This document shows, piece after piece, positions 10,370 to 19,449 of a DNA stretch of 52,840 nt. The notes under the pieces were generated by a model. That model made no database searches and was not told the origin of the DNA. It worked only from the letters and a program-made list of their open reading frames with translations. This DNA is from PVC group bacterium (GTDB lineage: Bacteria; Verrucomicrobiota; Kiritimatiellia; CAIKKV01; CAITUY01). The stretch covers positions 1-52,840 of the forward strand of contig CAMDCX010000010.1 of the NCBI GenBank assembly GCA_945890715.1. The letters run 5' to 3'. Both the position numbers and the translations under genes were made by a program. How positions within the stretch are numbered: the first letter of the stretch is position 1; each line of letters opens with the position of its first letter.

Positions 10370-12558
10370 CGCCGTCTCCTCTGTCCCTTCCGTTGCTCAG
10401 GCCGTCCCTTCGCTGCACGTTGCGGCTCCGGCCGCTTAAGGGAGAAGTCAATTCTCCGCTTTTCGAAATCCACCTTCACGGCAAACACTTTCACCCGCGT
10501 ACCCAGCTTGTAAATGTCCTGTCCCGCACGCAATGCCTTGAGCCCCGGATCAAACTGGACAAAGGAGTCTGAAATTGCCGAAACATGAATCAAGCCCTGA
10601 ACACTCAACCCGTCGAGTTCGACAAAAAGCCCGAAATTCATGACTTTCACCACCACGGCGTCATAGATCCGGACATCGTTCTGCTCGATCTGCTGGGCCA
10701 GAAAACGGTATTTCTTGATTTCCAGCAATTCGCGCTCCGCTTCCTGCGCCGTCTGCTCGGTTTCGGAACAATGCAGGGCGAGTCGTTCCAATTCGTCCCC
10801 GGGATACGGATTCGCGCGCGATTCCAGAATGGCCGCCAGGATCCGATGCACCACAAGATCCGGGTAGCGACGAATCGGCGAGGTGAAATGCGCATAAAAC
10901 TTCTTGGCCAGCCCGAAATGCCCGCCTTCCTTGGAACTATAAACTGCCCGCTTCATGCTCCGTAAGACGGCCACTTGAGCGCAATTCGCCAGCGGGGTAT
11001 CCTTGATCCGTTTCAGGAATTCCATGAGATTGCGCCGGTTATTCAACTGACCGGGCTGGTAGCCCATATCGTGCAGGTCGGCGGTCAGCATCTCGATTTT
11101 ATCCTCCGCAGGCGCCTCGTGAAGCCGGTGGATCAACTTCATGCCCCGTTCGCTGATTACCCGGTCAACCGCCTCGTTGGCCGCCACCATGCACTCCTCA
11201 ATCATCTGGTGCGAAATGTCGTTCACTACCGGCTTGATATCCTCGATCATGCCGCCTTTTCCGATGACGACCTGGTTTTCAGGCATATCAATGTCCAACG
11301 CCCACTGGGTCATGCGGCGCCCCCGCAACTGCATGGCCAGGGCGCAGACGTCATTGACCAGGCCCCTCGCCTCTGCGGGAAAATTCGGAACCTTGCACGT
11401 CATTCCGGCAGGAGTCTGAAGCACTTCCAGCGCCTGCTCGTAAGTCAATCGCAGCCGGGACCGGATGATCGTGCGGGAAAACCGGGACTGCACCACATTC
11501 CCCGCGTCATCAAAAGTCATAAACGCGGAGAACGCCAGGCGATCCTGATCAGGCTTCAGGCTGCATAAGCCGTTCGACAACTCCTCGGGAAGCATGGGAA
11601 TCACCTTGTCGGGAAGATACACGCTATTGCCGCGCTCAACGGCTTCCCGATCCAGGGCATTTCCCTTGGTCACAAAATGACAGACATCGGCGATATGGAC
11701 TCCCAGCACGCGCCGTCCCTCCGCATCCCGCTCCAGGGACAACGCATCATCGAAATCCTTAGCCGTTGCCGGATCCACCGTGAAGATGAATTTTCCCCGC
11801 AAATCCTCCCGCTTTCCCGGCTGATCAAGACGGGCGGCGGAAACTCCAGCCTCATGCATGACGGCAATGGGAAACGATTCGGGCAATTCATACTGGCGCA
11901 TGATGGCCAATGTATCCAGAGACGGGTTATCAGCCGGGCCGATCACCTCGATGATTTCAGCCTCGGGATTCACATGGCGGTTTTCCCAATTCGTAAACTG
12001 GATCACCACCCGGTCATTGATCTGGGCACCCTTGACTTCAGAAACATAAAAGTCCTGCTGATACGATGGATCCATGGGAGCCACATACAGGAACCGCCCC
12101 GTGCTTTTCAGGGTTCCAACCACGACCCGGGTTCCCCGCTCCAAAACCCGTATCACCACACCATGGCGCTGCCACGTCGCCATTCCGGTGCGCAACGGTT
12201 CAATCCGCACCACCACCTGATCGCCGGGAAGGGCCGTGCTGAGGTGCCCCCGATCAATCTTAACGGTCAGCTCTCCTTCGAGATTGGTCAGATAACCATC
12301 TCCTGATCGTTTCACTTCCAGCCTGCCTGTAATCAGATCGGCGGGAGCGCCCAGGGAATAACGGGTCTTGCGGATCAGAACAATCTCCCCGTTCATCACC
12401 ATCTTATGCAGAAGTGAAACGAGCGCTTTCCGCGCCCCACCCCGCAGGGAAAAGGCGGCCTCCAGCTCTCCCAGAGTCATCGGGGCATAGCCCGGTCTCT
12501 GAAAAAACTCCAGAATCGTCTCGTGCGTCAGGATTTCAGAAGCCATTTTTTTAGGCAT
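10366..12558 (-). CDS. rnr: Ribonuclease R (RNB-family 3'-5' exoribonuclease)
   Basis: Processive 3'-5' exoribonuclease for structured RNA. 730 residues. N-terminal winged-helix-like region (MTLGELEAAFSLRGGARKAL), cold-shock OB domains at about 75-205, and an RNB catalytic domain with the acidic cluster DPATAKDFDDAL (residues 262-273; Asp262, 268, 270, 271). The later motif HFTSPIRRYPDLVVHR is diagnostic. A C-terminal S1 domain (VVKVMNFGLFVELDGLSVQGLIHVS) is followed by a short basic tail. It sits between oppC (4 bp gap) and the DUF3108-like gene (4 bp overlap). ATG 12558 is used; 12546 is possible. Confidence 0.95.
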   Translation of the reverse strand: MPKKMASEILTHETILEFFQRPGYAPMTLGELEAAFSLRGGARKALVSLLHKMVMNGEIVLIRKTRYSLGAPADLITGRLEVKRSGDGYLTNLEGELTVKIDRGHLSTALPGDQVVVRIEPLRTGMATWQRHGVVIRVLERGTRVVVGTLKSTGRFLYVAPMDPSYQQDFYVSEVKGAQINDRVVIQFTNWENRHVNPEAEIIEVIGPADNPSLDTLAIMRQYELPESFPIAVMHEAGVSAARLDQPGKREDLRGKFIFTVDPATAKDFDDALSLERDAEGRRVLGVHIADVCHFVTKGNALDREAVERGNSVYLPDKVIPMLPEELSNGLCSLKPDQDRLAFSAFMTFDDAGNVVQSRFSRTIIRSRLRLTYEQALEVLQTPAGMTCKVPNFPAEARGLVNDVCALAMQLRGRRMTQWALDIDMPENQVVIGKGGMIEDIKPVVNDISHQMIEECMVAANEAVDRVISERGMKLIHRLHEAPAEDKIEMLTADLHDMGYQPGQLNNRRNLMEFLKRIKDTPLANCAQVAVLRSMKRAVYSSKEGGHFGLAKKFYAHFTSPIRRYPDLVVHRILAAILESRANPYPGDELERLALHCSETEQTAQEAERELLEIKKYRFLAQQIEQNDVRIYDAVVVKVMNFGLFVELDGLSVQGLIHVSAISDSFVQFDPGLKALRAGQDIYKLGTRVKVFAVKVDFEKRRIDFSLKRPEPQRAAKGRPEQRKGQRRRR

Positions 12559-17558: not shown

Positions 17559-19082
17559 CTACCAGTCCGTCGGCTGGTAATCCTTGAGGAATTTTCCCCA
17601 CACATGCACTCCGGTATTGAAGCCGGAAATAATCGGATCCACGATGCGCGCCGCCCCATCCACAATATCCAGGGGGGGGTGGAACCGGTGCATCTTCGTC
17701 TTGAGTTCCGCAAGTTGCACCGGATCCTCATCAGTCACCCATCCCGTATCCACGGCGTTCATGTGGATGCCCTCGTTAAAATAGTCTGTCGCCGACGTAC
17801 GCGTCATCATGTTCAGCGCCGCTTTGGCCATGTTCGTATGCGGATGCCGTGTGGTCTTGAGCTTCCGGTAAAACTGCCCCTCCATGGCCGACACGTTCAC
17901 AATATGCTTGTCTCGCTCCGGCGTTCGCAGCATCAGGGGTTTGAGCCGTGCATTCAGAATGAAGGGAGCAATGGCGTTCACCAGATGCACCTCCAGTAAC
18001 TCCACTGCGGGAACATCCGCCATCAGTAACCGCCACGAATTGGTGGTTCGCAGATCCACCTGCTGGAGATCCTTGTCAAGCTGGCCTTCGGGAAACAAAT
18101 CCCTCTGGGCCGCGAGCTCATCAGGCAACAACGGCACTTGGGACAACTCGGCGGCATGGGTCAGTCCCGCCACCTCGGACATTCTTTTCCGGGCCGCCAC
18201 CGCATCACCTTCGGGCAGCATATGATATCCCCGCAAGCCCTCATAGGCACCCAGCAACCGGCGCACGTGCTCCGGCATATCGCCCAGTGCCGCGGTTTCA
18301 CGCTCCATCATATGCTCGTAGAAATCCGGCGGCCGGCGAACGGTCTGACAGGCGTTGTTGATGATGAAATCCAGCCGGCTCCGGGTGGCCAGCAGATGAC
18401 GGCAGAACGCCTCAACGCTCGGGGTATGACGGAAGTCCAACCCGAAGATCTCGAGGCGGTGCCCCCACTCCGAAAAATCCGGTTCAGCGGCATAGCGAAT
18501 GGCTGAGTCACGGGGAAAGCGGGTGCAGACGATGAGGTGCGCCCCTGCCCTCAGCAGCTTGATCCCCGCCTGATAGCCGATCTTCACCCGCCCGCCCGTC
18601 AACAAGGCCACGCGGCCCGTGAGATTGGCTGATTCGGTGCGTTTGGTAAAGTTGAACTCCGCGCAGGCGGGGCACAGTTGGTCGTAAAAGTGGTGGATGG
18701 TGGTAAAGTTCTGCTTGCAGATATAGCAATTCTGGGGCTCAACGACATCGCGAAATTCCGGATCCTCCACGTCATTCTGCTCGAAGTTGGGAGGCGGAAG
18801 CGCATTCGGGGTCATGTAAACGGGCTTCTTCCTGAGTTCCCGGATCCCCGTGGAGCTGAGTTTGTTCTGGTCGCGCTCCACCAGCTGCGCCTTGCGCCGT
18901 CTTTCGGTAGCCCTGACCAACCGTCGCCGCTCGATCATATCCGGATTATAGACCTCACCCGCCACGGAAATCAGATCCTTGCGCTCTTCAGCCGAAAGCC
19001 CGGCCAGCAACGCCCGGTTCCCCGCCACAGTCTTCAACAGCGCCGTCGCCGCCTTCAATTCGTCAATCAAGGAGTCATGCAT
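17559..19082 (-). CDS. SDR-superfamily protein with N-terminal zinc ribbon
   Basis: 507 residues. An alpha-helical N-terminus (about 1-90) with basic [16 protein letters not shown] is followed by a four-Cys zinc ribbon: CYIC (119/122) and CPAC (137/140). A Rossmann domain starts at about 155 ([42 protein letters not shown]). The short-chain dehydrogenase Ser is present ([10 protein letters not shown]), but the position of the catalytic Tyr in YxxxK is Thr ([14 protein letters not shown]). The Rossmann loop is also non-canonical. The fold is clear, but normal SDR chemistry is doubtful. First gene of the operon behind the promoter at 19159-19188. Confidence 0.8.
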
Positions 19083-19158: not shown

Positions 19159-19188
19159 AGTATACACGAACGCAGGGAGTATTGTCAT
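19159..19188 (-). promoter_or_regulatory. Promoter of the SDR-kinase-regulator-opp-rnr operon
   Basis: On the minus strand ATGACA (19188-19183) and TATACT (19164-19159), each 5/6 matches to consensus, are 18 bp apart. Initiation near 19152 gives a leader of about 70 nt before the ATG at 19082. The nearby element at 19216-19423 lies just upstream. Confidence 0.55.
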
Positions 19189-19215
19189 GGGAATTGAAAT
19201 CAAGCGACGAAAGGA

Positions 19216-19423
19216 GGGCGCATGGCAGTTCCGTCGGGGTTTATCTAAATCATAATCGTAATCTTAATCGTAATCGTAATCCTCCTCATGACCATAGCTC
19301 GTTTTTAAGATTTTCACTTTAGAGGATCCTTGAAGATCAAAACAAGATCAGGATTACGATTAGGATTACGATTACGATTACGATTATGATGGGTGTTATC
19401 CCCGACGGAACTGCCATGCGCCC
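19216..19423. mobile_element. MITE-like element, 208 bp, 24-bp perfect inverted ends, 9-bp target duplication
   Basis: The ends 19216-19239 and 19400-19423 are perfect 24-bp inverted repeats (GGGCGCATGGCAGTTCC... at the left). They are bounded exactly by direct repeats ACGAAAGGA at 19207-19215 and 19424-19432, the signature of a transposition target duplication. Inside each end lies an inverted hexamer array built on ATCGTA (left 19249-19283, right 19350-19390), leaving a 66-bp centre without an ORF. No transposase is encoded, so it must be mobilised in trans. It lies between the asnB-like gene stop and the promoter of the next minus-strand operon. The long stem could also stop transcripts. 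Confidence 0.88.
19249..19390. repeat. Inverted pair of ATCGTA hexamer arrays inside the MITE
   Basis: The left array (19249-19283) and the reverse complement of the right array (19350-19390) both read as ATCATA followed by ATCGTA-type hexamers ending in ATCCT. The left has about 6 units, the right about 7. They extend the terminal inverted repeats into a long imperfect stem. Confidence 0.8.
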
Positions 19424-19449
19424 ACGAAAGGAACAGCTACTTGGGACGG

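Follow-up and report, generated by a model that had tools for sequence, protein, structure and literature searches.

We find that a 208-bp element in the genome of a PVC group bacterium of the Kiritimatiellia (assembly GCA_945890715.1) is very probably a MITE of the ISKra4 family that was cut from a longer cassette carrying an S23-type gene, mobilised in trans and targeted to promoters. Its assignment follows from ends shared with autonomous ISKra4 elements, 9-bp target duplications and a consistent spacing from promoters. The element is thus a member of a known family, with the gene remnant, the fixed promoter spacing and the hexamer-stem cargo as variant features. An earlier sequence-only reading had taken it for a clean MITE-type insertion, which is borne out by the ends, the duplication, further copies and transposase-bearing parents, all of which we observe directly, along with the gene remnant and the promoter spacing. 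Beyond that reading, we show that the interior is the remnant of a gene-carrying element, that the insertion is promoter-targeted, and that the hexamer arms are part of a wider pattern.

Anatomy of the element

The window, i.e. the whole stretch of 52,840 nucleotides analysed here, is contig C10 of a 2.1-Mb genome in 87 contigs, approximately 90% complete. It contains no rRNA, and the insertion site is intergenic. The perfect 24-bp inverted ends and the 9-bp duplication directly outside both of them, as originally described, are present (Table 1), and the 208 bp are devoid of a gene. Between the ends lie inverted arms of 76 nt that are 83% complementary, the left one comprising the units AATCAT, AATCGT, AATCTT, AATCGT, AATCGT and AATCCT, in that order. 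The predicted RNA fold of the element has an energy of -111.9 kcal/mol, which, compared with dinucleotide shuffles, corresponds to z = -14; a search of the window against Rfam gave no match, and no terminator-like site was found. The arms indeed differ by one unit, but the claim of active slippage is unsupported: the difference in unit number points to past slippage or unequal exchange rather than to present activity.

Table 1. Features of the window element and its surroundings, and further exact 9-bp duplications around same-end elements of the class
Feature	Position	Strand	Evidence or sequence
Element, 208 bp	19216..19423		bounded by 24-bp ends
Left target duplication copy, 9 bp	19207..19215	.	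ACGAAAGGA; 9/9 identical to right copy
Left terminal inverted repeat, ISKra4-type end	19216..19239	+	GGGCGCATGGCAGTTCCGTCGGGG; matches ends of transposase-encoding elements L194, L195, L216, L218
Left hexamer array, 6 units AATCNT	19248..19283	+	sequence reading, unit statistics
Remnant, first ~9 codons of PF05635 gene	19282..19308	-	alignment to C65 element; frame read by hand
Core: 5' leader and gene-start remnant, joined directly to other array (internal deletion)	19284..19349	-	C65 match
Right hexamer array, 7 units ANGATT, outermost imperfect	19350..19391	+	sequence reading
Right terminal inverted repeat	19400..19423	-	exact reverse complement of left end (24/24)
Right target duplication copy, 9 bp	19424..19432	.	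ACGAAAGGA; sequence reading
Sigma70-type promoter ATGACA-18-TATACT, facing left	19159..19188	-	promoter scoring; -35/-10 kept in G005 ortholog L324
Gene downstream of promoter, 507 aa, short-chain-dehydrogenase fold	17559..19082	-	orthologs 85-91% in five same-genus genomes
Exact 9-bp duplication	G003:C258		TTGGGACAG
Exact 9-bp duplication	G007:C197		GAGCGTCCC
Exact 9-bp duplication	G151:C14		CCCTCTGCA
Exact 9-bp duplication	G165:C508		CTGCGCGCC
Exact 9-bp duplication	G192:C211		CGCAGGCCG
Exact 9-bp duplication	G097:C23		TACGTCGCC

Autonomous parents, copies and target duplications

A 23-letter end pattern, which replaced a loose 16-letter one that gave near-background counts, was searched against 193 genomes of the class and matched in 82 of them, often as inverted pairs, with a reversed control mostly near zero. 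Full-length parents with the same ends, for which the sequence-only reading had proposed a search, were recovered from related genomes (1966 bp in G009, 1964 bp in G014, 1976 bp in G114 and 1936 bp in G158) and encode an ISKra4-family transposase. The G009 and G014 elements code for a 454-aa transposase, scoring 214 and 211 bits respectively against the NCBIfam ISKra4 model (NF033572; cut-off 205), and additionally for a DUF6788 ORF. Window-type ends bound the NF033572-positive transposases of loci L194 and L195 and their homologs in L216 and L218, and the G114 element has no mismatch in either end. The outer flanks of L218 (G158) are near-identical inverted copies on both sides, an assembly artefact or a nested palindrome.

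As claimed, the transposase is not in the window; nor does the genome contain a parent-type transposase at E 1e-20 in its approximately 90% complete assembly, so the mobiliser is either absent or unassembled. Among five same-genus genomes searched, four lack a close ISKra4 transposase and G003 has only a distant one (31%). These absences weigh against the assignment made here. Transposition of the window element would have been catalysed in trans. Window-type ends also enclose unrelated interiors in G013, G151 and G165, which argues that the ends, and not the hexamer arms, define mobility. At L144, L145 and the G151/G165 loci (L200-L207) ISKra4-type ends surround quite different, genome-specific hairpins. 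It is as if such ends repeatedly capture local palindromic repeats.

Further same-end copies, for which a search had likewise been proposed, occur across the class and in the same genome on contigs C42, C13, C65 and C6. The C42 copy (11901-12098) is 91% identical and has its own exact 9-bp duplication, TTTCCCGAT; the repeat extends to 14 bp there because the flank resembles the element end. A degenerate copy resides on C58. The C13 copy (L050:2285-2554) is a chimera, combining window-like ISKra4-type ends and outer arms with an interior derived in part from another repeat, type A. Its switch point falls inside a hexamer array, which suggests that these arrays act as exchange points. Type A is a second MITE-like family, whose ends are CATCCCATAGG and whose direct repeats measure 12 and 15 bp (L034:1839-2021, L017:1369-1545 and L047:1597-1773, on contigs C61, C21 and C78); its repeats, several of which lie at contig ends, also hold a hexamer hairpin, with loop TTTCCGGGGCAGTCG. 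One stretch of the type A repeats is similar to ACGAAAGGA, which we judged to be a coincidence.

A target duplication of 9 bp is typical of the ISKra4 group. Across the class we found nine independent exact 9-bp duplications around same-end elements, i.e. that of the window and eight further cases, when approximately 1e-4 would be expected in about 28 pairs. None of the four full-length transposase-bearing copies has one, a point against the assignment, possibly on account of contig assembly joining repeats from different sites.

Insertion upstream of promoters

At the window site, 27 bp separate the end of the element from the -35 edge of the promoter, a distance made up of the 9-bp duplication and 18 bp. 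This spacing recurs: 28 of 93 outward end flanks contain a sigma70-like promoter whose -35 starts at the peak distance of 26-27 bp from the end, whereas shuffled flanks average 0.33 promoters per position, with a maximum of 4 at the 99th percentile. A single fixed end-to-promoter spacing amounts to a sharp targeting rule. Part of the ISKra4 group was previously reported to insert 13-17 bp upstream of sigmaA promoters, on either side of the element when its ends are near-perfect complements (PMC3942029). The larger offset seen here perhaps stems from a different way of measuring. We did not find the proposed empty site, with just one ACGAAAGGA, in the strict sense; the orthologous promoter in the same-genus genome G005 (L324) has conserved -35 and -10 and no element. 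Both the offset and the missing empty site count against the assignment.

The interior as a remnant of a gene-carrying cassette

Two elements of the same genome, C65:9104-9671 and C6:7285-7865, share the window element's type of ends and of hexamer arms and enclose an intact ORF of approximately 130 aa. Its product scores 70 bits against Pfam PF05635 (23S_rRNA_IVP; cut-off 33.8) and 64 bits against NCBIfam TIGR02436 (four helix bundle protein; cut-off 24). The C65 element is flanked by the 9-bp duplication GTGGGTGAA. By sequence, the only solved relative of the protein is 2gsc, an uncharacterised Xanthomonas protein, which we take to be the S23-type structure cited in PMC4990558. The window core recovers C65 with an E-value of 2e-14 (query 80-177), and on the minus strand its alignment to the leader and gene start of C65 outscores every one of 1000 shuffles. 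The translation in that frame is LKTSYGHEE (versus MNTSFDHEK or MKTSFDHEK), with the start codon lost; of the gene that is intact in C65 and C6, the window retains only this nine-codon remnant. As the core thus encodes the leader and about the first nine codons, the window element is an internal-deletion derivative, and we infer from the alignment that the deletion removed what lay between about codon 9 and the far array. The G145 element, too, combines ISKra4-type ends with one non-transposase gene. A further PF05635 gene at L053 (contig C5:12310-12600) sits between inverted ATGAAGGATGAATT-type arrays and, by eye, appears to be inserted in a RAYT-type-transposase-like gene.

These relatives provide a worked chain from parent insertion sequence through gene-carrying cassette to MITE. 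Its source would have been a same-end cassette with an intact four-helix-bundle gene of the 23S rRNA IVP/S23 type between inverted hexamer arrays. An internal deletion would then have retained the ends, both arrays, the leader and roughly nine codons of the gene start. The 24-bp ends would have been recognised by an ISKra4-type DDE transposase provided in trans, and the element would have inserted 18 bp, counted after the 9-bp duplication, upstream of the sigma70-type -35 box, duplicating ACGAAAGGA.

The cargo gene and hexamer arrays across phyla

Searching named genomes with the C65 protein as query brought up over 500 relatives, of which the best 80 span Kiritimatiellae, other Verrucomicrobiota, Planctomycetota (including the isolates Rhodopirellula rubra and Aporhodopirellula aestuarii), SAR324, Desulfococcaceae, Ignavibacteria and others. 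In Rhodopirellula rubra CECT 8075 the four-helix-bundle array element is at L316. Among these best 80, 65 had adequate flanks, and 61 of the latter show a flank-to-flank inverted match above all 100 shuffles, nearly always with a period of 6 or 12. In a controlled rerun 51 of 55 relatives lay in inverted hexamer arrays, as against 4 of 212 shifted windows. The array unit varies (AATCNT, TCTTAC, TTTGTC and others), with period and inversion kept. In the window's genome the fifth position of AATCNT takes any base (G 158, C 62, A 54, T 42), with the others nearly fixed, the unit filter itself restricting changes at those other positions. Base-pair covariation between the arms at the variable position did not stand out (69% versus 65% in shuffles, 24 of 500 of which reach it). 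The four-helix-bundle protein is under purifying selection (dN/dS 0.05-0.10), and no rRNA was found at 20 related loci. Direct repeats of 16-43 bp flank several array elements, the majority of which have no intact ISKra4 ends; such repeats are commoner than mispaired flanks predict, with about 6 independent cases among the 80. Searches of the open-access literature in PMC turned up no description of four-helix-bundle genes within hexamer-array stems, nor of MITEs from this bacterial group.

Alternative explanations

Such data raise the prospect that the hexamer-stem/four-helix-bundle unit is itself mobile, by an IVS-like route of its own, with ISKra4 ends as secondary passengers in some lineages. 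In its favour, most of the relatives in hexamer arrays have no recognisable ISKra4 ends, at least two distinct end families contain hexamer hairpins, and the gene is maintained by purifying selection. Moreover, the array elements L258, L261/L097, L305 and L256, which lack ISKra4 ends, lie between direct repeats of about 18-43 bp, some of which span the start of the downstream gene (those at L097 and L258 at least cover its apparent start codon). Nevertheless, we regard this as a rather unlikely account, since the ISKra4 ends and the 9-bp duplication fully explain the window copy, and the long direct repeats are few and have no known enzyme. A broader conjecture, slightly less doubtful and offered tentatively, is that IVP/S23 genes in inverted hexamer-array stems constitute a previously unrecognised multi-phylum class of mobile elements, which would insert with long, variable duplications of 16-43 bp, be the source of solo hairpins as well as of 23S rRNA intervening sequences, and be repeatedly captured by transposon ends such as those of ISKra4.

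The genome also has about 30 or more loci with hexamer hairpins that lack window-type ends, many sharing a loop; solo hairpins tested for flanking duplications showed none above chance, except two with ISKra4 ends. At one hairpin locus (L013, contig C19, ~1700) the hairpin is seen, by eye only, just upstream of an apparent tmRNA start. Together with two Y1-type transposases in the genome, these shared-loop hairpins without duplications recall REP-type palindromes spread by a RAYT (IS200-like tyrosine) transposase. This is a very improbable origin, applicable to the solo hairpins only: an element with 24-bp perfect ends and a 9-bp duplication is not a product of IS200-like transposition, and the duplication rules out a RAYT origin for the window element. 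Finally, the very stable fold might betray a chance palindrome or a transcript-level structure, such as a terminator or regulatory RNA. We assign this next to no probability, given the negative Rfam and terminator results and the copies that lie in different surroundings, each with a duplication of its own; the further copies and the parents of the element already refute it.

Relationship to known systems and implications

The ISKra4-family MITE favoured here shares with its counterparts in that family (p-MULT 4, Mutator superfamily) ends that begin with GGG and are near-perfect complements, 9-bp duplications at non-autonomous copies, parents encoding a transposase above the NCBIfam cut-off, and insertion upstream of sigmaA promoters on either side (PMC3942029). 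It differs in the placement of the -35 at 26-27 bp as opposed to the published 13-17 bp (PMC3942029) and in an interior made up of a hexamer-array stem and a gene remnant; further, the parents in G009 and G014 carry DUF6788. The C65, C6 and G145 elements, with ISKra4-type ends around one non-transposase gene, resemble mobile insertion cassettes, but their passenger is a four-helix-bundle IVP/S23 gene between inverted hexamer arrays. REP/RAYT palindromes are likewise dispersed hairpins, but the window element is set apart by its terminal repeats and target duplication.

The intervening sequences of 23S rRNA in Coxiella and Leptospira offer another parallel, namely a gene of the same Pfam family in a long inverted-repeat stem loop (PMC4990558). 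The elements described here differ in being outside rRNA, in having hexamer-array stems, in being dispersed and, in some cases, in having transposon ends. As the cargo is not in rRNA, we do not class it with the rRNA intervening sequences. The mobility of rRNA intervening sequences with S23 genes has been suspected for decades, and their origin is unclear (PMC4990558). The cargo described here bears on that question: S23-type relatives, including those of the cultured planctomycetes, occupy array stems away from rRNA, are under purifying selection and, in some cases, have clean target duplications.
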